DNA of 64,000 nucleotides from Nakamurella lactea DSM 19367 (GTDB lineage: Bacteria > Actinomycetota > Actinomycetes > Mycobacteriales > Nakamurellaceae): contig NZ_AUFT01000008.1 in NCBI RefSeq assembly GCF_000426645.1, positions 62,001-126,000 of the forward strand, written 5' to 3'. The first letter of the stretch is position 1; each line of letters starts with the position of its first letter. Positions 4,863 to 32,017 of this stretch are shown here, in pieces. The translations under genes and the position numbers were made by a program. The notes beneath the pieces are model-generated. The model worked only from the letters and a program-made list of their open reading frames with translations, did not search any database and was not told the DNA's origin.

Positions 4863-6017
4863 TCAGCCGCCGGTGGGGTCGACGCCAGGGCCGGCACCGG
4901 GGTCGACCGCGGGACCGGTGGTCGAACCGGTTGACCCGCTGCCGCTGGTCGGCTGCTCGGGCCGCGGCTGGGCGGCCACCAGCAGGTCGACCGCACTCTG
5001 CTGGGTGGCGGCGTTGACGCCGGCGATCGGGCCCGCCCAGTGCACCCCGTAGCGGCCGTTGGCGTCCCGGTCGTTCTTGTACGCGCTGTTCGCCTGGTCG
5101 GTGAGGTAGCCGCTGTAGGGCTGATCCTCCAGCGCATCGTTCAGTTCGCCGAGATTGCGGACGTAGATGCCCTTGAAGCTGACGCCGTTGGTGTCGCATC
5201 CGGTCGCCTCGCAGGGTTCGGTGAGCACGCCGTCGACGTGCAGGGCATCGCTGGTCGCCGAGGCGTCGGCGAGCTCCCTGGCCCGTTGCAGGTAGCCGAT
5301 GTCGCCGGTGGCCTGGTGCAGCGCCACCAGACCGCCCAGCACCACACCCTGGTTGTACGTCCAGGTCTGGTCGCCGTTGTTCCGGCAGGTACTGGACGAC
5401 AGACCGTCGTTGATCAGGAGCTGATCGTTGATCAGCCCGCTGCTGTCGAACCAGTCCCAGACCTGTAGCGCCTGCTGCAGATAGCGGGTGTCGCCGGGAA
5501 CTCGGTTGTGCAATTCGGCGGCGGCCTTGATGAACAGCTCGCTGGAGATCGCGTTCTTGTAGCTGCGGCTGGTGGTCCACCACAGCCCTCCGCCGCAGAC
5601 GTCGTCGGCGTACTGCCACATGAAATCCACTCCGCGCTTTGCCACCTGCAGGAACCGCGGATCACCTGTCAGGTCGTAACCACGGATCCAGGCCAGGGCC
5701 CACCACCCGGTGTCGTCGATGAACGAATTGATGAAGTTGCCCTGTAAGGCATTTCGTTTCTTGTTGTACGTATTGTCCAGCACCCAGGCATAGCGATGGT
5801 CGCCGGACTTGATCATGTAGTCGGTGAGCGTGGTGAGCGCATTCGCCGAATTCCACCATCCGGTCGTCGGCCAGACCCCGACCCGGAGGTCGTAGTCTGC
5901 CACCAGGACATCGACCGCCGCCACGTCGGAAGGAGCGCGTGAGGAGCACCCGCTGAGCACGAGTGTGAAGCAGACGGCCAGGGCGATACCGCGCCGCAAT
6001 GCCCGTCGGATTCTCAT
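4863..6017 (-). CDS. Glycoside hydrolase family 76 lipoprotein (alpha-1,6-mannanase-like)
   Basis: 384 aa from the ATG at 6017. Longer in-frame starts exist, but this one begins a clear lipoprotein signal (MRIRRALRRG, hydrophobic core, LVLSGCSS lipobox). The body has an alpha/alpha-barrel pattern, with WWNSANALTTLTDYM, the paired-aspartate FIDDTGWWALAW that forms the GH76 active site, GGGLWWTT and QTWTYNQGVVLGGLVAL. GH76 enzymes cut alpha-1,6-mannan, found in fungal walls and in actinobacterial lipomannan. The tail is Gly/Ser/Thr/Pro-rich. It is divergent from a sugar-type ABC binding protein, suggesting linked glycan breakdown and uptake. Confidence 0.88.
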   Translation of the reverse strand: MRIRRALRRGIALAVCFTLVLSGCSSRAPSDVAAVDVLVADYDLRVGVWPTTGWWNSANALTTLTDYMIKSGDHRYAWVLDNTYNKKRNALQGNFINSFIDDTGWWALAWIRGYDLTGDPRFLQVAKRGVDFMWQYADDVCGGGLWWTTSRSYKNAISSELFIKAAAELHNRVPGDTRYLQQALQVWDWFDSSGLINDQLLINDGLSSSTCRNNGDQTWTYNQGVVLGGLVALHQATGDIGYLQRARELADASATSDALHVDGVLTEPCEATGCDTNGVSFKGIYVRNLGELNDALEDQPYSGYLTDQANSAYKNDRDANGRYGVHWAGPIAGVNAATQQSAVDLLVAAQPRPEQPTSGSGSTGSTTGPAVDPGAGPGVDPTGG

Positions 6018-6060
6018 GTCACCCCGTTCTGGCTGACGACACCGCACCCAGGAGGACATC

Positions 6061-7248
6061 ATGCCATCGGCGTACGCCGGTCGGGTCCGGCCCGGGACCG
6101 GCCGCCGGCCCGGACGGCGGATGCTGTCGCTGGTGCTCGCCACGGTGCTCGCGGGCGGCACCGCCTGCACCGCGGTGAATCCGTCACCGCCGGAAACCGG
6201 GCAGACATCGCAGACCGGGCCGATCAGCACCAGCCCCTCCAGCACCCCCAGCGGCGCCTCGACGAGCACCACGACGAGCACCACGAACCCGAGTGGTGAT
6301 TTCGGCTCCGACCACTTCACCCCGTTCCGGACGACCGTGCCGAACAGCGCGGAGGGCAGGCGGATCGGGCTGATCGGCCTCGACCAGGCGAACCCGTACA
6401 GCAAACTGGTGTCCGAGTCGATCAAGGAGCAGGCGACGATCGCCGGTGCCGCACTGGTCTACTGCGATGCCGAGAACAACGCCGAGGTCGCGCTGCGCTG
6501 TGCCCGTCGGCTGGCCGCCCAGGGAGTGGACGCCTGGGTGACGTTCCAGCCGGTGATCTCGGCCGGGCAGTCGATCTGCGGGGCGGGACCGAAGGACGTC
6601 CCGATGATCTCCATCGACAGCACCCAGGGCAACTGCCAGTCGACCAGGGTCGGCATCGACGACCAGTGGGCGGGCTTCACCCTCGGTACCGAGCTGGGGC
6701 GCTTCATCCAGCGGCGCTTCGACTGCCAGGTCGGCGTCGTCGTCTATCTGGTCGATCCCACCGACGGGTTCGTCCACCGACGTCGGGCCACCGGCGCCGG
6801 CATCGGGCTGGACACCATCTGTCCGGCGGCGACCGACCGGCCGCCGCCGGTACAGCTCGAGGCCAGCGGCCAGGACGCCGCCTTCGCCGCCGTCGGCAAG
6901 GCGCTGACCTCCATCGACAAGGGGCAACGGGTGCTGATCGTCGGCGCGAACGACGGCCTGACGCTCGGCGCGGTCGGCGCCGCCAGGGCAGCCGGGCGAC
7001 TCGACGACGTCTACGTCGGCGGCATCGGCGCCGATCCGCGTTCCTACTGCGAGATCGCCGAAGATCCGCACTGGGTGGGCGATGTCGCCTCGTTCCCGGA
7101 GAAGTACGGGCAACTGGTGATGCCCTACCTGGTCGATCTGATGGCCGGAAAGCCGGTGCCGGCCAACCTGTTCGTCCGCAACGAGTTCATCGACGCGTCG
7201 ACCATCGGTGAGCACTACGACGTCTCCGACTGCGAGCAGACGCCGTGA
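6061..7248 (+). CDS. Sugar-type ABC transporter substrate-binding lipoprotein
   Basis: 395 aa, ATG with AGGAGG 6 nt upstream. Residues 1-40 form an N-terminal lipoprotein signal with Cys after GGTA, followed by a Ser/Thr/Pro linker (45-80). The rest is a periplasmic-binding fold of the ribose/galactose (LacI-like) type: RIGLIGLDQANPYSKLVSES, repeated substrate-pocket loops, VLIVGANDGLTLGAVGAARA and YVGGIGADP. Ligand specificity cannot be read; the GH76 neighbour points to mannose or mannan oligosaccharides. It overlaps the permease gene by 4 nt (GTGA), so the two are translationally coupled. No ATP-binding gene is adjacent. Confidence 0.85.
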   Translation: MPSAYAGRVRPGTGRRPGRRMLSLVLATVLAGGTACTAVNPSPPETGQTSQTGPISTSPSSTPSGASTSTTTSTTNPSGDFGSDHFTPFRTTVPNSAEGRRIGLIGLDQANPYSKLVSESIKEQATIAGAALVYCDAENNAEVALRCARRLAAQGVDAWVTFQPVISAGQSICGAGPKDVPMISIDSTQGNCQSTRVGIDDQWAGFTLGTELGRFIQRRFDCQVGVVVYLVDPTDGFVHRRRATGAGIGLDTICPAATDRPPPVQLEASGQDAAFAAVGKALTSIDKGQRVLIVGANDGLTLGAVGAARAAGRLDDVYVGGIGADPRSYCEIAEDPHWVGDVASFPEKYGQLVMPYLVDLMAGKPVPANLFVRNEFIDASTIGEHYDVSDCEQTP

Positions 7249-22724: not shown

Positions 22725-24026
22725 TCAGACTGCGTCGGGGGCCGGCGCGGTCGGCCCACCGAGCCGCAGATCGGGCCTTGACACCGATCCGACGCCGAAG
22801 GTCCGCAGCATCTCCTGCTCGGCCTCCAGTACCGTTCCCAGCCGGCGGATTCCCTCGACGATGCGCTCGGGAGTCGGGTAACAGAACGAGAGCCGCATCT
22901 GCCGGGTGCCGAAACCATCGGCGTAGAAGGCGGTTCCGGGTACGTAGGCGACCCGCTCGGTGACCGCCCTCGGCAACATCGCGGCGGTGTCGTAACCCTC
23001 GGGCAGGGTCAGCCAGACGTAGAAGCCGCCGTCCGGCCGGGTCCAGGTCGTGCCGGCCGGCATGTGCGTCTCCAGGGCAGCCAGCATGGCGTCGCGGCGC
23101 TCGGCGTACAGCTCCCGATAGGTCTTGATCTGGCTCTGCCAGTCGAAGTTCGCCAGATACCGGGAGATCATCATCTGGTTGAACATCGGCGGGTTCAGAA
23201 TGGCGGACTCGTTGGCCAGCACCAGCTTTTCCTTGACCGCGTGCGGCGCCAGCACCCAGCCGACCCGCAGCCCGGGAGCGAAGGTCTTGGAGAACGAGCC
23301 GAGGTAGATCACGTTGTCGGGATCCAGCGAACGGATTGCCGGGTAGACGGTGTCCGAGAAGCCGAGCAGCCCGTACGGATTGTCCTCCAACACGGTGATC
23401 CCGGCCTCGGCGCAGATCCGGGCGACCTGCGCGCGCCGGTCAACGGACAGCGTCACGCCGGCCGGGTTGTGGAAGTTCGGGACCGTGTACAGCAGTTTCG
23501 CCCGCCGCCCGGACTCACGTACCGCGGCGATCGCGGCCTCGAGCGCCGCCGGAACCAGGCCGTCGTCATCGGTCTCGACGTGCACCACCTGCGCCTGGTA
23601 GGCGGAGAAGGTGCCCAGCGCGCCGACGTACGACGGTGCCTCGGCCAGGATCACATCGCCTGGGTCGCAATAGATCCGGGTCACCAGGTCGAGGGCCATC
23701 TGCGAGCCGATGGTCACCACCACGTCGTCCGGGTGGGCGCTGATCCCCTCGAGGGCCATCACCTGGCAGATCTGTTCCCGGAGTTCGGGAATGCCCTGCC
23801 CGGCCCCGTACTGCAACGCCACCCGGCCGTCATCGGCGAGCAGCCGCCCGGTCTCCGCGGCCAGCTGCTCCAGCGGCAACGAGTCCAGGAACGGCATTCC
23901 GCCGGCCAGCGAGACCACCTCGGGACGGTTGACCACCGCGAACAGTGCCCGGATGGCCGAGGCCCGCATGCCGCCGGTGCGGACGGCGTTCCGCTGCAAC
24001 TGCGGATCCAGGGATCGACCGGACAT
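22725..24026 (-). CDS. PLP-dependent class I/II aminotransferase
   Basis: 433 aa. It is fold type I, with VSLAGGMPFLDSLP near the N-terminus, LQYGAGQGIPELREQI, the NFHNPAGVTLSVDRR loop, and the PLP-lysine motif IYLGSFSKTFAPGLRVGW. It resembles LysN/2-aminoadipate and MocR-type aminotransferase domains, without an N-terminal HTH. It lies directly upstream of the ATP-grasp ligase on the same strand, so the two probably form an operon in amino-acid or cell-wall metabolism. Confidence 0.87.
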   Translation of the reverse strand: MSGRSLDPQLQRNAVRTGGMRASAIRALFAVVNRPEVVSLAGGMPFLDSLPLEQLAAETGRLLADDGRVALQYGAGQGIPELREQICQVMALEGISAHPDDVVVTIGSQMALDLVTRIYCDPGDVILAEAPSYVGALGTFSAYQAQVVHVETDDDGLVPAALEAAIAAVRESGRRAKLLYTVPNFHNPAGVTLSVDRRAQVARICAEAGITVLEDNPYGLLGFSDTVYPAIRSLDPDNVIYLGSFSKTFAPGLRVGWVLAPHAVKEKLVLANESAILNPPMFNQMMISRYLANFDWQSQIKTYRELYAERRDAMLAALETHMPAGTTWTRPDGGFYVWLTLPEGYDTAAMLPRAVTERVAYVPGTAFYADGFGTRQMRLSFCYPTPERIVEGIRRLGTVLEAEQEMLRTFGVGSVSRPDLRLGGPTAPAPDAV

Positions 24027-25159: not shown

Positions 25160-25690
25160 ATGACGAACGACGCAGCACCGCAGCCGGCGCCGAATCCGGT
25201 ACCCCACCCGGCCGCCGGGAACGCCGCCGAGCGGCCGCAGCCGCGCGCCAACAAGCTGCGCTTCCAGCGATTCACCAACGCGCTGATCCGCGGCCTGTTG
25301 CGCACCCCGCTGCTGTGCCGACTGGTCGGTGCGCGGCTGCTGACCATCTATCTGGTCGGCCGCAAGAGTGGCCGGCACTACGCGATCCCGGTCGCCTACA
25401 CCGCCCAGGGCACCGACCTGCTGGTCGGCAGCCCGTTCGGCTGGATCCGCAACCTGCGCACCGGCGATCCGGTCGACATCCGGCTCAAGGGCCGGCGGGT
25501 GGCGGCGGACGTCCGGGTCTTCCGGGACGAACAGGGGGCGATCGCGGCCTACCGGACGATGGCCCGCGACAACCACGCCTTCGCGGGCTTCAACAAGATC
25601 GGCATCGGGGCTGACGGCGAGCCGGACGCCGGGGACCTCCGGCTGGCCTTCGAGGCCGGTGCCAGGGCGGCGGTGCTGACGCCGCGCTGA
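25160..25690 (+). CDS. Nitroreductase/deazaflavin-dependent (DUF385-like) oxidoreductase
   Basis: 176 aa from the ATG at 25160, which has GGAG upstream; an in-frame ATG ten codons earlier lacks a ribosome site. The split-beta-barrel pattern includes LLTIYLVGRKSGRHYAIPVAY, LLVGSPFGWIRNLRTGDPVDI and MARDNHAFAGFNKIG. This matches Ddn-like F420-binding proteins. The substrate is unknown. It is divergent from the ECF sigma gene, pointing to co-regulation. Confidence 0.75.
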   Translation: MTNDAAPQPAPNPVPHPAAGNAAERPQPRANKLRFQRFTNALIRGLLRTPLLCRLVGARLLTIYLVGRKSGRHYAIPVAYTAQGTDLLVGSPFGWIRNLRTGDPVDIRLKGRRVAADVRVFRDEQGAIAAYRTMARDNHAFAGFNKIGIGADGEPDAGDLRLAFEAGARAAVLTPR

Positions 25691-26855: not shown

Positions 26856-27614
26856 CTACGAGCCTACCCGTCCGTTGCCGACCACCGGCAGCACCGTCTG
26901 CTCGAGGCCGTTGAACATCTCGTCGATCAGGGCGCGGATCTGGGCCGACGGAGGCAGGCCGAGCTCGCGTTCCAGCAGCTGCCGGTACCGGTCGAAATGC
27001 AGTACCGCGGCGGAGGCGTTGCCCTGCCGCAGATGGACCTCGATCAGCAGCCGATGGGTGCTGTCCCGCAACGGATCGGCGGCCACTCCGGCCATCGCCA
27101 GTGCCAGCGCCTCGTCGAGGTTGTCCTCCCGCAGCTGGGTCGCGCAGAGCCGCTCCAACGCGGCCACCCGTAGGTTCCGCAGTCTCTCCCGCTCGTCGCG
27201 TGCCCAGTCGTCATACCAACCGGGGAGCAGTTCGCCGGCGCAGCGGACCGTCGACCGGCCGGTCCGATGGACCGGCCGCCCGTCGAGGGCGGCGTCGATG
27301 AATCCGAGCAGCTGCAGCAGGTCGGTGTCCGTCACCGCTCCCAGCCCGAGGGCCGACCGATCGCCGTCGAGCAGGCCGGGGGCTTCCCGCAGCACCCGCC
27401 ACATGGTGGTCCGCAGGCTGGCCATGGCGGCGGTGTCGCGGTGATCGGGCCAGAGCGTTCCGGCCAACCAGCAGCGTTCCTTGATGCCGACCACCGCCAG
27501 CAGGGCGATCAGTCGGCGACCGTTCGGTGGCAGCCGCACAGAACGGCTCCCCGGGTTCGCAGTCAGCTGGAAGCTGTCCAGTAATCGCAGGCTGTATCCG
27601 ATGGTCTCGGTCAT
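26856..27614 (-). CDS. SARP/AfsR-type transcriptional regulator (BTAD domain only)
   Basis: 252 aa from the ATG at 27614. An N-terminal OmpR-like winged helix (YSLRLLDSFQLTANPG, LPPNGRRLIALLAVVG, AGTLWPDHRDTAAMASLRTTM) is followed by the bacterial transcriptional activation domain (~95-245, ERLRNLRVAALERLC, PLRDSTHRLLIEVHLRQGN, FDRYRQLLERELGLPPS). SARPs usually activate secondary-metabolite clusters. It is divergent from the peptide genes at 27868, with 253 bp between, so it is the probable pathway activator. No signalling domain is attached. Confidence 0.85.
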   Translation of the reverse strand: MTETIGYSLRLLDSFQLTANPGSRSVRLPPNGRRLIALLAVVGIKERCWLAGTLWPDHRDTAAMASLRTTMWRVLREAPGLLDGDRSALGLGAVTDTDLLQLLGFIDAALDGRPVHRTGRSTVRCAGELLPGWYDDWARDERERLRNLRVAALERLCATQLREDNLDEALALAMAGVAADPLRDSTHRLLIEVHLRQGNASAAVLHFDRYRQLLERELGLPPSAQIRALIDEMFNGLEQTVLPVVGNGRVGS

Positions 27615-27867
27615 CCCGTCACCGCCCAACGCTTCGACGTGAACCGACCTGCAGGTTCACCCATCCCTGAGGTTCCGGTTCGATGTCCGGATACGTCACC
27701 AGGGGTAGCAGATTGTCCGTCACCCGTTCACCACAAAGTGGCCTCGACCTCGGAACGAAGACGGATCGGTGATGCGACGGTTACGCAGCGATGACGGGTG
27801 GGGGTGCCTACTGATGGCGTGCGCACAACACATCCATCCACATCACCATCAGAAGGGAACCACCATC
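27615..27867. promoter_or_regulatory. Divergent promoter region, SARP gene / peptide operon
   Basis: This 253-bp stretch separates the SARP start from the first peptide start. It is less GC-rich than its surroundings. Repeated TTCACC/GTCACC words (around 27655, 27700, 27720 and 27727) could be activator half-sites, but spacing is irregular and I do not assign an operator. Confidence 0.35.
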
Positions 27868-28062
27868 ATGTCTGCACTCACGCTGCGCGAACTGTCCACG
27901 GAGTCGGCCGAACTGCTGCCGACCCGGGAGACGCTGGACTTCATCCACGTCAACTACGCCAACGTCTGGGCGAGCAACTCGTCGCTGGCCCTGAACGCCG
28001 CCTCGCTGTTCTCCCTGGCGAACTCCTCCGCGGCCCAGGTCATCACCGTCGCCCAGGGCTGA
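27868..28062 (+). CDS. Leader-type peptide 1 (RiPP-like precursor candidate)
   Basis: 64 aa, ATG with AAGGGAA 9 nt upstream. It has no Sec signal. Residues 1-23 form a putative leader (MSALTLRELSTESAELLPTR, then ETL). Residues 24-64 form an Ala/Asn/Ser/Val core with alternating small residues, no Cys, and end VAQG. It shares MSA, RE, ELLPxRETL and most of the Asn/Ala positions with the next gene. The core aligns without gaps with the CxxC repeats of the secreted protein at 31193. It precedes a PqqD-M50 fusion, so I infer a processed precursor. Confidence 0.75.
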   Translation: MSALTLRELSTESAELLPTRETLDFIHVNYANVWASNSSLALNAASLFSLANSSAAQVITVAQG

Positions 28063-28067
28063 TCGCG

Positions 28068-28265
28068 ATGTCGGCCATCGAGATCCGGGAGATCGCGGCC
28101 CAGACCGGCGAACTGTTGCCGTCGCGGGAAACGCTCGCACTGTTCTCGATCAACATCGCGCCGGTCACGGCGGTGAATGTCGCTATCGCCGTGAACGCGG
28201 CGACCATCAACTCGTCCGCCCAGGCCTTCGCCGGCCAGTGGATCACGATGGCGCTGCACACCTGA
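28068..28265 (+). CDS. Leader-type peptide 2 (paralogue of peptide 1)
   Basis: 65 aa, starting 5 nt after peptide 1. The leader is MSAIEIREIAAQTGELLPSR then ETL; the core runs from residue 24 to the C-terminal MALHT. It aligns without gaps with peptide 1 to residue 62. Shared core positions include N29, A31, V33, A35, N37, A41, N43-A45, S49, A51, A55, Q57, I59 and T60. The alternating pattern (NxAxVxAxN, IAVNAA) suggests a beta-strand or amyloid-like core. No Cys. A strong hairpin follows before the processing gene. Confidence 0.75.
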   Translation: MSAIEIREIAAQTGELLPSRETLALFSINIAPVTAVNVAIAVNAATINSSAQAFAGQWITMALHT

Positions 28266-28323
28266 TCCCGACTTCCGGGGTCACCCGCCGGTCGCCCGGT
28301 ACTGCGGCGATCGGACCCGGGAT

Positions 28324-28352
28324 GCGGTGGGGGTCACGCCGACCCCCACCGC
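28324..28352. terminator. Hairpin between peptide genes and processing gene
   Basis: A 12-bp perfect stem (GCGGTGGGGGTC/GACCCCCACCGC) with a 5-nt loop sits in the 165-bp gap after peptide 2. As an attenuator or RNA-stabilising 3' end it would keep peptide mRNA far more abundant than mRNA for the downstream membrane protease, a common arrangement in precursor-peptide operons. Confidence 0.65.
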
Positions 28353-28430
28353 TCCCTCCGGCTCGTCGCTGCCAGGTGGATTCGACTCACCCGCCGCCAC
28401 CGATCCGGTCAACATCCAGGAGTACGGAAG

Positions 28431-30872
28431 ATGAGCAACGCCGACGACGTGCTGCACCGCAGGGCCGACGGCCTCGAACTGATCGGCGAGTTCGACGGAT
28501 CCGGCTACCGCGATCCGCGTTTCCTGGTGATCAGGGCGGACGGTCAGGCCGTCCACCTCACCCGCCTGCTGTACCTGGTGCTCGAGGCCCTTGACGGGGA
28601 GCGCACCGACGAGCAGGCCGCGGCTCTGGTCGGCGAACGGTTCGACCGCGAGCTGCCACCCGAGGCCTTCGACTACCTGCTGACGGAGAAGCTGGCCCCG
28701 CTCGGCCTGCTGGCCGGGCAACGGTCGCCGGCCCCGGACAGCGCCGTCGTCGGCGCTTCCCCGAAGGCCGATCCGGTGCTGGCGCTGCGACTGCACGCCA
28801 CCCTGATTCCGGTCCGCTGGGTCCGGCGGTTGGCCCGGCTGCTGTCCCCGCTGTTCGTCGCGCCCGTCATCGCCGCGGCCCTGCTCGCCCTGCTGGTCGT
28901 GGACGGCGTGCTGCTGGCGACCGCCGACATCGGTGCCGCGCTGGGCCAGGTGATCCTGACCCCGACGGACGTGTTGCTGGTCGTCGTGGCGATGGTCGCG
29001 GTGTCGCTGTTCCACGAGCTCGGCCACGCGGCCGGCTGCCATCGGGGCGGAGGCCGACCGGGCCGGATCGGTATCGGCCTGTACGTGATCTTCCCGGCCT
29101 TCTACACCGACGTCACCGACTCGTACCGGCTGACCCGCGGCGGACGGCTGCGTACCGACCTGGGTGGGGTGTACTTCTCCGCGCTGACGGCGCTGGCCGC
29201 AGGCGTCGGCCACCTGACCACCGGCTCCCCGTTGTTGTTGCTGGTGGCGTTCCTGGCGCAGATCGAACTGGCGCAGCAGTTGCTGCCGCTGGTCCGGATG
29301 GACGGGTACTTCATTCTCACCGACCTGACCGGCGTCCCCGATCTCTTCGGCCGGATCCGGCCGCTGTTGTCCGGCCTGATCCCGGGCCGCGGAACGCATC
29401 CGGACGTGGCACACCTGTTGCCGCGCACCAGGACCATCGTGGTCGGCTGGGTGGCCGTGGTGGTCCCGGTGCTGACCGTCGGGTTCGGATTCCTGTTGCT
29501 GCAGACGCCGACCATCATCAGCTCGACCGTGGCCGCCTGGCAGCAGGCCTGGCACACCGGCCTCGACGGCTGGTCGGACGGCTCGGTCGCGACCGTGCTG
29601 GTCGCGCTGATCACCGGTCTGCTCGCCGCGCTGCCGGCGGTCGGGCTGGCCATGTTGACCGTGGTGCTGTTGCGAAAGGGTGTGGCTTTCGCGGCATCCC
29701 GGCTGAGTGTGCTCAGGCCGGCCGCGCCGTTGGTGACGGCGTCGGCCGGACTGCGCTGGACCAGCTGGGGCACCGGAGCGCCGGCGGCGGGGACAGGCGA
29801 CATTGCCCCGTCCACAACCTCGCCTTCCGCGCCGTCGGCCCACGCAATGCCACCGGGGACGACGGACGGGGGTGAGTCGGTGGACGGGGGTGACGACAGC
29901 GAACGGCCGCCCGGCGCCGATCAGTTCACCGAACTGACCATGCTCCGGCCGCGGGCCAAGCCCCCGACCCGCGGCTGGCGGCGGGCCGTGCACCGGGTCA
30001 GCGGTGGGCGGATCAATCCGGGACCGACGAAGGCGGAACTGGCCCAGTCGGCGCTGCTGGCCAGGGCCCGCCGCCCGGTGCCGCGGACCCGGCGGATCGT
30101 CGTGCTGTCCCGCAAGGGTGGGGTCGGGAAGACGACGACCACGCTGATGCTCGGGCACACCTTCGCCAGCATCCGCGGCGACCGGGTGGTGGCGCTGGAC
30201 GCGAACCCGGACGCCGGCAATCTCGGCCAGCGGGTGCCAAGGGAGACCAACGCCACCGTCACCTCGCTGCTCGCCGCGGCGGACAGCATCGAGCGGTACA
30301 CCGACATCCGGGTGTTCACCTCACAGGCCGAGACCCGGCTCGAGGTGATTGCCTCCGACGACGATCCACGGATCACCTCGGCGCTGGGCATGTCGGACTA
30401 CCGCAGGGTGATCGACACGCTCGACCGGCACTACACGCTGATGATCATCGACACCGGGACCGGCATCCTGGATGACGCCATCCAGGGCATCCTCGGCGAG
30501 GCGGATCAGCTGATCGTGGTGATGCCGCCGGCCCTGGACGGCGCTCGGGTGGCGGCCGGCACCCTCGACTGGCTGGATCAGCATCGCTACGGCCGTTTGG
30601 TCGACGGGGCGATCGCGGTGGTGAACGGGGTTCGGGACTCCGACGGGCTGGTCGATCTCGCCAAGGTGGACGCGCACTTCGCCGCCCGCTGCTCGGCAGT
30701 GGTGCGGATTCCCTGGGATCGCACGCTGGAGGCCGGCGCCCAGGTGCAGCTGGACGCGCTCGCCAGGCGTACCAGGAGCGCGTACCTGGAACTGGCCGCC
30801 GCGGTCGCCGACCGGTTCGCCGATCCGCCGGCGCGGGTTGCCGGGCGGGTTGCAGGTCAGGACCTGACGTGA
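28431..30872 (+). CDS. PqqD-like / M50 metalloprotease / MinD-like ATPase fusion
   Basis: 813 aa, ATG with CAGGAG upstream. Residues ~5-95 resemble a PqqD-type peptide-recognition winged helix. Residues ~125-420 are an M50 site-2-protease-like membrane domain with FHELGHAAGCHRGGG (HExxH at 195-199) and LVRMDGYF (third ligand Asp291). A Pro/Ser/Asp linker (~445-500) follows. Residues ~510-800 are a MinD/ParA-type ATPase with [29 protein letters not shown] (562-569), LDANPDAGNLGQRV and IIDTGTG. This half closely resembles the ATPases found with type VII secretion (EspI/Rv3876 group). The combination probably recognises, cuts and moves the adjacent peptides. I know of no described homologue with all three parts. 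Confidence 0.85.
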   Translation: MSNADDVLHRRADGLELIGEFDGSGYRDPRFLVIRADGQAVHLTRLLYLVLEALDGERTDEQAAALVGERFDRELPPEAFDYLLTEKLAPLGLLAGQRSPAPDSAVVGASPKADPVLALRLHATLIPVRWVRRLARLLSPLFVAPVIAAALLALLVVDGVLLATADIGAALGQVILTPTDVLLVVVAMVAVSLFHELGHAAGCHRGGGRPGRIGIGLYVIFPAFYTDVTDSYRLTRGGRLRTDLGGVYFSALTALAAGVGHLTTGSPLLLLVAFLAQIELAQQLLPLVRMDGYFILTDLTGVPDLFGRIRPLLSGLIPGRGTHPDVAHLLPRTRTIVVGWVAVVVPVLTVGFGFLLLQTPTIISSTVAAWQQAWHTGLDGWSDGSVATVLVALITGLLAALPAVGLAMLTVVLLRKGVAFAASRLSVLRPAAPLVTASAGLRWTSWGTGAPAAGTGDIAPSTTSPSAPSAHAMPPGTTDGGESVDGGDDSERPPGADQFTELTMLRPRAKPPTRGWRRAVHRVSGGRINPGPTKAELAQSALLARARRPVPRTRRIVVLSRKGGVGKTTTTLMLGHTFASIRGDRVVALDANPDAGNLGQRVPRETNATVTSLLAAADSIERYTDIRVFTSQAETRLEVIASDDDPRITSALGMSDYRRVIDTLDRHYTLMIIDTGTGILDDAIQGILGEADQLIVVMPPALDGARVAAGTLDWLDQHRYGRLVDGAIAVVNGVRDSDGLVDLAKVDAHFAARCSAVVRIPWDRTLEAGAQVQLDALARRTRSAYLELAAAVADRFADPPARVAGRVAGQDLT

Positions 30873-31093
30873 TGACCCCGCTGCGGCTGCTGACGGTGTT
30901 CCTGCTGTTCGGCGTGCTCGTCACCGACCAGTCGGCACCGGCCGCAACCGGCCAGCACGGGCCGGCACCACCGGCCGTGACGAGCATCCAGACACGCTGT
31001 GGCACAACAGAATTCCGGTTGACCTTCATCGGCGAACCGGGGAGTGGACGGGCACTCGGGTTCTACAACCGAGTGGTGCGCACCGGCTGCTGA
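30872..31093 (+). CDS. Small secreted protein with two cysteines
   Basis: 73 aa, ATG overlapping the stop of the fusion gene (TGATG), so translation is coupled. Residues 1-26 form a Sec signal peptide (MTPLRLLTVFLLFGVLVTDQ). The mature part is ~47 residues with a Pro-rich start and two Cys residues, one at RCGTTEFRL and one as the last residue, which could form a disulphide. I do not recognise a family. It may be an accessory of the peptide system. Confidence 0.65.
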   Translation: MTPLRLLTVFLLFGVLVTDQSAPAATGQHGPAPPAVTSIQTRCGTTEFRLTFIGEPGSGRALGFYNRVVRTGC

Positions 31094-31192
31094 GCAGCCG
31101 ACGAACACCCCAGTAGGTGCCGAGGAGAGTGCGGCACTCGCACTGCGCGCCGCAGCGGAACCGTTGCGGCGCAGTCAATCAGGAGGAACGTG

Positions 31193-32017
31193 ATGAGCGA
31201 ACCACGCAGGACTGCGCTGGCCCGACCGGTGATCGCCATGGTGATCGGACTGTTGGTCGGCCTGTCGGCCGGGCCGGTGACCGCGTCGGCGGCCACTGGG
31301 TCGGCGGCCGCCGGGTCAACGGCACTGTCGATCGGCAAGGCCGGGAGCACCGTCGCCGGCTTCTCGCATCCCGACTACCGGTTCAACCGGCACCCGGACG
31401 TGGTCGCCTCGGCGCAGCCGACCAGCGGCCAACCGTCGGCGAGCGAGACCCAGAAGGTCAGCGTTCGGCTGGCCAAGCGGACCAAGGCCAACACCACGGC
31501 GACCTCGTCGGCGGTCTGCGACGGTTGCGCGGGAACCGCTGTCGCCGTCGTCGACGTTCATCTGCCGTTCCGCTACGGCACGGTGCGTGCCGACAACGTG
31601 GCGACCGCCTGGTCCGCTGGTTGCCAGAACTGTTCGGCCATCGCGGTTTCGGTGCAGGTGGTGCTCGGCAGATCGGCCAAGGACGTCCAGGTCAACAATC
31701 GGGCGCTCGCGGTGAACGCGGCGTGCACCGACTGCAGCACCACCGCGGTTGCGGTGCAGTTCGTTCTGCTCGGTGGCCGGGACGCCTGGTACTCGCCGAA
31801 CGGCCGGGCACTGGCCGGCCAGATCGCCGATCAGATCCTCGCCACCATCACGGCACCGCCGGTGGCCGCCGCGCGATCGATGGCGGCCGAGACCGCCGGG
31901 GCCCCGGACACCCTCACCGACGCGGTGACGGCGACGGCCGAGCAGAACCGGGTGGCATTGCAGCGGCAGTTCGGGGCCGCCACGTCAACCGTGACGGTGC
32001 AGGCGATGTCCGGCTGA
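31193..32017 (+). CDS. Secreted protein with three CxxC repeats
   Basis: 274 aa from the ATG at 31193 with AGGAGG upstream. The signal peptide is residues ~1-34 (ending TASA). CxxC motifs lie at C109/C112 (CDGC), C144/C147 (CQNC) and C178/C181 (CTDC), spaced 35 and 34 residues, each followed by TAVAV- or AIAVSVQ-like strands. The repeat pattern is N-x6-A-x-C-x2-C-x3-A-x-[AS]-x-Q, with Val for the final Gln in repeat 1. The two peptides upstream fit the same pattern with Ser/Thr for Cys. The C-terminal ~75 residues are Ala-rich and helical. It may bind metal or heme, form disulphides, or act as a scaffold for the peptides. The family is not recognised. Confidence 0.7.
   Translation: MSEPRRTALARPVIAMVIGLLVGLSAGPVTASAATGSAAAGSTALSIGKAGSTVAGFSHPDYRFNRHPDVVASAQPTSGQPSASETQKVSVRLAKRTKANTTATSSAVCDGCAGTAVAVVDVHLPFRYGTVRADNVATAWSAGCQNCSAIAVSVQVVLGRSAKDVQVNNRALAVNAACTDCSTTAVAVQFVLLGGRDAWYSPNGRALAGQIADQILATITAPPVAAARSMAAETAGAPDTLTDAVTATAEQNRVALQRQFGAATSTVTVQAMSG

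Follow-up and report, generated by a model that had tools for sequence, protein, structure and literature searches.

How might a bacterium mature and export small peptides from a locus that offers a conserved leader and a membrane protease, with no recognised tailoring enzyme beside it? The question is raised by a cassette at positions 26856-32017 of a 64,000-nt stretch of Nakamurella lactea DSM 19367 (the whole stretch is called the window here). The cassette encodes two short paralogous peptides, a membrane protease fusion and a secreted protein with CxxC repeats, and related gene sets recur across Actinomycetota, where leader peptide and protease occur in near-exclusive pairing. We propose a self-contained, leader-guided and transporter-independent cassette for maturation and export, whose CxxC protein would co-assemble with the released peptide. 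Taken whole, we regard this statement as evenly poised between right and wrong, and our confidence in it lies mainly in its maturation part. The window locus comprises the following features, where RRE stands for the recognition element of ribosomally synthesised and post-translationally modified peptides (RiPPs):

26856..27629, minus strand: SARP-type (BTAD) regulator, probable ATG start at 27614, divergent from the peptides (Pfam BTAD, PF03704, E 2.5e-18)
27868..28062, plus strand: peptide 1, 64 aa, type A, with an ELLPTRETL leader and an Asn/Ala/Ser beta-like core ending in QG
28068..28265, plus strand: peptide 2, 65 aa, type B, with an ELLPSRETL leader and a core paralogous to that of peptide 1
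28431..30872, plus strand: fusion of RRE, site-2 protease (HELGH ... MDGY) and MinD-like ATPase, 813 aa
28473..28715, plus strand: N-terminal RRE-like (PqqD-like) domain of the fusion, about residues 15-95
30078..30830, plus strand: C-terminal MinD/ParA-like domain of the fusion (KGGVGKT), about residues 550-800
30869..31093, plus strand: secreted-looking 74-aa protein with two Cys, an orphan
31190..32017, plus strand: secreted protein of three ~34-aa CxxC repeats (CxxC near 31517, 31622 and 31724), with a probable ATG at 31193

An initial annotation of this DNA had described a SARP activator divergent from two paralogous 64-65-aa ELLPxRETL peptides, a PqqD/M50/MinD-like fusion, and a secreted protein with three CxxC pairs. 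Each gene that it named was found again at its coordinates, the fusion resolving into an RRE-like domain, a site-2 protease and a MinD-like ATPase, and the CxxC pairs falling one in each repeat.

A constant leader and its membrane protease

Protease relatives were found in 8 of 61 near genomes (the window's own counted), and a scan of one genome per species (84,980 species) returned at least 296, of which 80 were carried into the locus analysis. The window, five loci from near relatives and 79 of these 80 make up the 85 loci analysed here, L018 having been dropped as a duplicate of L013; counts out of 82 refer to the loci where an in-house sequence pattern detected the protease. Gene calls and the patterns for the protease and for ATP-binding cassette (ABC) proteins came from in-house scripts. 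An even sample of 396 genomes from the window's phylum, which may share genomes with the first locus set, held 53 protease matches at E<=1e-3, 25 of them strong (E<1e-90; window's own genome included), and relatives occur also in contigs labelled Chloroflexi. Family loci lie on Streptomyces plasmids as well (L148, NZ_CP107797.1; L149, NZ_CP102333.1), and in the two annotated Streptomyces plasmid records the translated cassette genes carry the label hypothetical protein. The gene set is a widespread family in Actinomycetota, apparently without a name.

Leader peptides accompany the protease in 84 of the 85 loci, and the exception (L014) begins at a contig edge. Neighbor clustering found them in 78 of the 82 loci with a pattern-detected protease. 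A hidden Markov model (HMM) trained on these loci found them in 83 of the 85, adding L053, L077 and L096 as well as L032, L056 and L063, where the pattern had missed the protease; L095 was recovered by clustering only. All 19 loci with a MinD fusion have leader peptides. Among 12,341 open reading frames (ORFs), every match of the HMM, again as trained on these loci, lay within 4 kb of a family protease. In the phylum sample, with the model sources L098 and L099 removed, matches at E<=0.01 stood at 22 of 23 strong homologues and at none of five distant proteases. One of these 22 is borderline (L111, at E 0.0087, where no LPxR peptide was visible). L122 has no HMM match but does have an LPTR ORF found by eye. 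The pairing of leader and protease is near-exclusive. The protease genes of L111 and L120 carry an in-frame stop, L111 also lacking a clear leader peptide, and these two may be decaying copies.

The leader motif, LPxR[EADQT] or LPxKE, is present in 131 of 144 clustered peptides. An alignment of 70 short peptides (from 75 non-redundant ones among 105) shows conservation of 90% or more at L, P and R in the leader and, in the core, at N, A, N, A, A and Q; a core-only HMM scores the window peptides at E 5.1e-15 or better, with the window cores in its training set. Behind the constant leader the cores range over beta-like, Cys-rich, Gly-rich and hydrophobic types, a combination that follows the pattern of leader-guided processing. 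There are several paralogous precursors per locus, and 24 of 39 long forms measure 208-335 aa, with two tandem repeats in most aligned rows (26 of 35 long precursors were included). Constant leader, varied cores, RRE-like domain and protease occur together here, and the peptides are candidate RiPPs in the general sense. Among divergent cores, one in Streptomyces is Gly/Ser-rich with a Cys tail, one is Cys-rich (L053, 1099-1587), one is aromatic/Gly (L096, 7470-7685), and those of L117, L119 and L122 are hydrophobic, with an Arg-rich type also occurring in the set of L116, L117, L119 and L122; such cores are possibly separate product classes.

Neither Pfam nor NCBIfam gives the peptides or the long precursors a family name. 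Stray matches in one or two of the 70 peptides reached E 0.0058 (NCBIfam) and 0.013 (Pfam) at best, and those of the long precursors to the GLTT repeat (Pfam E 9.4e-5, 1 of 26) and to Gasdermin (best E 0.046, 3 of 26) were set aside as chance. In the open-access literature we found no description of the system; core strings were unmatched and the leader motif was matched by chance only. The initial annotation had proposed an undescribed leader-plus-protease locus for maturation and export without a tailoring enzyme, had asked whether ELLPxRETL peptides co-occur with such fusions, and would have abandoned the idea had the fusion regularly occurred alone or had the peptides belonged to a named RiPP class. 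The pairing of leader and protease and the absence of family names support its reading, neither of these two outcomes having been seen.

In an alignment of 60 proteases (the window's and 59 of 76 listed), H195, E196, H199, D291 and G292 are invariant, and the M50 hallmark of HExxH with a distal Asp-Gly motif is present in the family. PF02163 matches 14 of the 60 at E<=0.1, and the top Foldseek match of the protease model is the site-2 protease of M. jannaschii (3b4r; prob 0.94, E 0.17, non-significant). At the N terminus the AlphaFold2 model gives the element order E16-20, E31-34, E40-43, H45-53, H60-71, H77-91, that is, three strands and three helices as in an RRE, and the sole PDB profile match of this domain is PqqD (3g2b, E 0.57). 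All 60 proteins match both the daptide model NF041824 and the epipeptide model NF058609 at E<=0.01. Every NF041824 match is under the cutoff, the best being the window protein with 133.8 versus 300 bits; against NF058609 the window protein scores 44.4 bits, where the cutoff is 225. Judged from these profile matches, the protease is distantly related to those of daptides and epipeptides, a kinship that had gone unnoticed at first.

We propose that the SARP regulator would activate the divergent operon and that the RRE-like domain of the membrane protease would bind the EL..E.LPxR[E/A] leader, as leader conservation and the daptide precedent suggest. The site-2 protease would then cut the leader near the LPxRE motif, in keeping with its intact active site and exclusive pairing, and would release the core outward without an ABC transporter. 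This last step is suggested because no transporter is common to the loci (a sequence pattern found no ABC-ATPase-like gene within 4.5 kb in the 82 loci) and because, in the passages of PMC10885120 consulted, the epipeptide protease EpeP/YydH/LiaK is thought to carry out cleavage as well as export, which sets a precedent for a locus that lacks a transporter. We consider this maturation half, leader-guided processing with export, quite probable.

The CxxC protein and its likeness to the peptide core

The CxxC protein carries a ~34-aa repeat that resembles the peptide core, a likeness missed by the initial annotation. Aligned with hhalign, the main core scored 18.5 against the CxxC repeat, where 200 column shuffles gave at most 11.5 and the reversed profile 11.5; two core subsets scored 16.0 and 21.4, with 100 shuffles each reaching no more than 11.4 and 13.5. 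The core profile left out 3 of 105 short peptides that had no clear leader, and the CxxC set comprised 19 proteins of the three-repeat type only. Core and repeat share the pattern N-x-A-x-A-x-N-x-x-[S/C]-x-x-[S/C] followed by A-x-A-x-Q.

The presence of the CxxC gene tracks the core type and not the protease, protease and leader being common to all. With core types assigned by the core HMM, 64 of the 73 main-core loci carry the gene, against 1 of the 11 that have other cores (Fisher p 3e-7, a post hoc value that ignores kinship), and the lone locus in the second group, L016, has a long precursor that the leader pattern probably mis-cut. A second locus set, with flanks of ~1.5 kb, gave 9 of 15 versus 0 of 7. 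By eye, a CxxC-type protein adjoins the protease in the Streptomyces plasmid locus with a beta-like core, and none was seen among the translated genes (3 of 11 listed) of the plasmid locus with Gly/Cys cores.

Built from 19 sequences, the AlphaFold2 model of the CxxC protein (mean pLDDT 77) has seven strands of 11-13 residues between 82 and 193, followed by helices; 8 of the 11 ten-residue blocks of 81-190 exceed pLDDT 90, and residues 1-64 mostly fall below 50. Many of the 50 weak Foldseek matches listed for it are beta-solenoids, including FapC and CsgA, a resemblance of the model that is at most suggestive. No PDB relative of the fold was found at E<=0.001, three sequence matches at E 0.08-0.35 being taken as chance, as were the Pfam matches to VMAP-M0 (E 0.00097) and DUF7351 (E 0.0011), each in 1 of 19 proteins, and to zf-C4pol (E 0.0025) in 2 of 19. 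Pfam gives the CxxC proteins no name, nor does NCBIfam for the window member. Heme binding at the CxxC pairs is not supported, because CxxCH, the usual motif, stands in a single unit of the 97 listed. That unit belongs to a second, free-standing CxxC gene (L089, 6500-7051) upstream of a CxxC-fused protease. After the CxxC gene, a gene for a ~255-aa protein, lipoprotein-like by eye, forms a cluster in six loci (for example L031, 6237-7004, where it has no Pfam match, and L074, 10411-11181).

The protease itself comes in several forms: among the 82 loci it ends in a CxxC domain in 27, in a MinD-like domain in 19, in another tail in 14, and is short in 22. Between protease core and extra domain, all 19 MinD fusions have one hydrophobic segment, and the CxxC fusions have two (21) or three (6). 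The one additional membrane crossing in the 21 would place the CxxC domain on the side opposite to MinD, so that hydropathy is consistent with CxxC outside and ATPase inside. On the midpoint-rooted protease tree, the CxxC fusions form one group (100/97), the MinD fusions share a single group of 30 rows with 11 short forms (4 changes), and the nearest relatives of the window protease are without MinD. In the window's clade the fused MinD-like ATPase, probably on the cytosolic side, may position or energise the protease. MinD (19 of 82 loci) and the 74-aa gene are ruled out as core parts, an accessory status not recognised in the first reading of the locus. The small gene had been described as encoding a 73-aa secreted protein with two Cys; the gene, its two Cys and its secreted look stand, but the product measures 74 aa and is an orphan, with no relative in any locus retrieved (best tblastn E 0.72). 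It begins on the stop codon of the fusion, where several Nocardioides loci begin the CxxC gene.

The likeness between repeat and core points to co-assembly and not to a small-molecule product. The released core would be the same type of beta-strand unit as the ~34-aa repeat, and core and CxxC protein would co-assemble outside the membrane, the latter serving as template, cap or anchor. This assembly half is a plausible proposal in which we place somewhat less than even confidence. Still more tentatively, Actinomycetota and Chloroflexota may use the cassette to build a surface polymer of beta strands from two components through RiPP-style, transporter-independent secretion, with the cores as subunits and the CxxC protein as nucleator or anchor; it would then be curli-like but unrelated to curli, a leader protease of natural-product type being responsible for its assembly. 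In some loci the CxxC domain is part of the putative exporting protease. Curli (with CsgA as subunit and CsgB as nucleator) and other functional amyloids are alike in having secreted repeats with spaced Asn, Gln and Ala, and in a second protein that bears the same kind of repeat, CsgB there and the CxxC protein here. Curli use Sec and CsgG, whereas a leader and protease route is proposed here, and CxxC pairs and Gram-positive hosts further set the present family apart. Membership in curli is ruled out by Pfam, as none of 26 long precursors matched curlin at E<=1.

Several observations pull in the other direction. The hhalign probability of the alignment between core and repeat is 53%, and sequences rich in Ala, Asn and Val can seem similar, though column shuffles preserve composition. 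The core HMM was adopted after a regex version of the core-type test, which gave a weaker result (51/7 versus 14/12, p 0.0013, kinship ignored) and misclassed long precursors. Nine of the 73 main-core loci have no detected CxxC gene (four Saccharopolyspora, Georgenia, L049, L057, L044 and L078); L044 and L078 are truncated by a contig end, an explanation that does not fully extend to Saccharopolyspora, Georgenia, L057 or L049, of which L049 has only 1.2 kb left. Foldseek finds no significant match for the CxxC model (best E 0.12), and the weak matches to FapC (rank 4, E 0.7) and CsgA (rank 10, E 2.5) have TM-scores of 0.07-0.12. Protease forms beyond the fusions do not all agree with the simple topology, with one hydrophobic segment in 19 of 22 short forms and one, two and three in 3, 7 and 4 of the 14 tail forms. 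On the side of the protease, Foldseek gives its model no PDB match at E<=0.001, and the RRE assignment draws on weak matches and a predicted element order.

Neighbouring genes and known peptide systems

In 28 of the 82 loci, the window included, a SARP relative is encoded no further than 7 kb from the protease (phmmer, E<=1e-6; 29 loci by clustering), and the window gene has the BTAD domain of SARP regulators. Many of the Nocardioides SARPs at these loci measure 506-580 aa. One such long form (L021, 4049-5584, 506 aa), divergent from the peptides, shows by eye a BTAD domain followed by a hydrophobic stretch, and this gene is common to 13 loci, all Nocardioides. It is followed by a surface-type gene (5595-7115) for a secreted-looking ~510-aa protein with a Big_1 Ig-like domain (E 1.6e-8), whose counterpart in L028 matches Big_1 under the cutoff (E 7.3e-6). 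Besides protease/CxxC, peptides and SARP, no gene cluster within 7 kb is common to more than 13 of the 82 loci; of the two 13-locus clusters, one is confined to Nocardioides and the other is mostly Nocardioides.

The absence of a RiPP tailoring enzyme had been asserted from the window alone, and it holds in so far as NCBIfam (E<=1e-6) revealed none among the 10 genes neighbouring the window locus, three of which had no match, and none is widely common among the 82 loci. These 10 genes include no daptide oxidative decarboxylase or methyltransferase and no radical SAM gene. Clustering showed no daptide-type enzyme gene common to more than 13 of the 82 loci, smaller clusters not being individually identified. 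The only pyridoxal phosphate protein nearby is MocR/aminotransferase-like (22725-24026), ~4 kb from the cassette and beyond the GNAT gene that flanks it; also beyond that flank, a gene at 25160-25690 resembles nitroreductase-family deazaflavin oxidoreductases under the cutoff. The cassette is an insert between this GNAT gene and cwlM, as had been suggested: in 8 of 16 congeners the aligned parts of the two genes lie 3-506 bp apart, and for the remaining 8 the ~1.5 kb retrieved showed no GNAT gene. In one congener (G011) cassette and cwlM are on different contigs.

Daptides are a close comparison. In the parts of PMC10036551 and PMC12338566 consulted, they combine an RRE-site-2 protease fusion (MpaP/DapP, NF041824), which the present family also has with model matches under the cutoff, with several short precursors per locus, as here, and their leader (ELExMEAP, versus ELLPxRET here) has EL in a similar place; the residues tested in MpaA1 were E-8, L-7, D-6, P-5, M-4, E-3 and P-1. 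In contrast, daptide precursors have an invariant C-terminal Thr, which ends only 5 of 105 short peptides here (in the window, one peptide ends in G and the other in T). Daptide loci also encode an ABC transporter, where the present loci have a secreted CxxC partner, and genes for oxidative decarboxylase, aminotransferase and methyltransferase, none of which was recognised beside the window locus. With neither the Thr rule nor these enzymes, membership in the daptides is ruled out. Epipeptides share an M50 protease, and all 60 family proteases match NF058609; membership there is ruled out as well, the protease matching under the cutoff and no radical SAM gene lying among the 10 genes beside the window locus. 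Main-text passages of two RRE surveys (PMC7470986, PMC12710340) make no mention of M50 or site-2 proteases.

Alternative explanations and what the cassette would mean

Several paralogous precursors per locus, cores that vary behind a constant leader, kinship of all 60 aligned proteases to those of daptides and epipeptides, and SARP relatives near the protease in 28 of 82 loci would also suit antimicrobial (bacteriocin-like) or other bioactive RiPPs, in which case the CxxC protein would play an accessory part or confer immunity, without any fibre being formed. We think this unlikely: no widely common gene would fit as tailoring enzyme, transporter or immunity factor, and none was recognised beside the window locus; many precursors are long, mostly with two tandem repeats; and immunity does not simply explain the likeness between core and CxxC repeat. 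That likeness, the co-occurrence of the CxxC gene with the main core type, and the membrane-anchored CxxC fusions in 27 of 82 loci are also what one might see if the CxxC protein were a look-alike chaperone or scavenger, strand-pairing with secreted cores to keep them soluble or inactive, and the peptides were signals or toxins. Such a role leaves unexplained why the cores resemble a structural repeat and, with no receptor or immunity gene widely common, we judge it improbable.

A processed core acting as a pheromone might signal back to the SARP, which is divergent from the peptides, or to the longer Nocardioides form, which in L021 shows by eye a hydrophobic stretch after BTAD. However, only 28 of 82 loci have a SARP relative, cores of ~40 aa would be long signals, as would precursors that reach 335 aa, and no importer or sensor is widely common, which leaves a pheromone role highly improbable. 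Site-2 proteases commonly act in regulated intramembrane proteolysis, and the protease could serve this common role on other substrates, with the peptides as inhibitors or adaptors; we give very little credence to this explanation, against which stand the RRE-like domain, the constant leader with varied cores, and the kinship to daptide and epipeptide proteases. Leader-guided maturation with export, followed by co-assembly of core and CxxC protein, is the explanation we prefer.

New here are the likeness between core and CxxC repeat, the tracking of core type by the CxxC gene, and the CxxC and MinD fusions. A peptide system that is strong in 25 of 396 genomes of its phylum and present also in Chloroflexi contigs has had no Pfam or NCBIfam name. 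The RRE/site-2-protease logic of daptides would serve also peptides without evident tailoring, and one membrane protease would pass very different cores by a common leader, without an ABC transporter. If co-assembly is true, the cassette would represent a new way in which Gram-positive bacteria make extracellular beta polymers, and would offer a compact tool for tag-directed peptide secretion.

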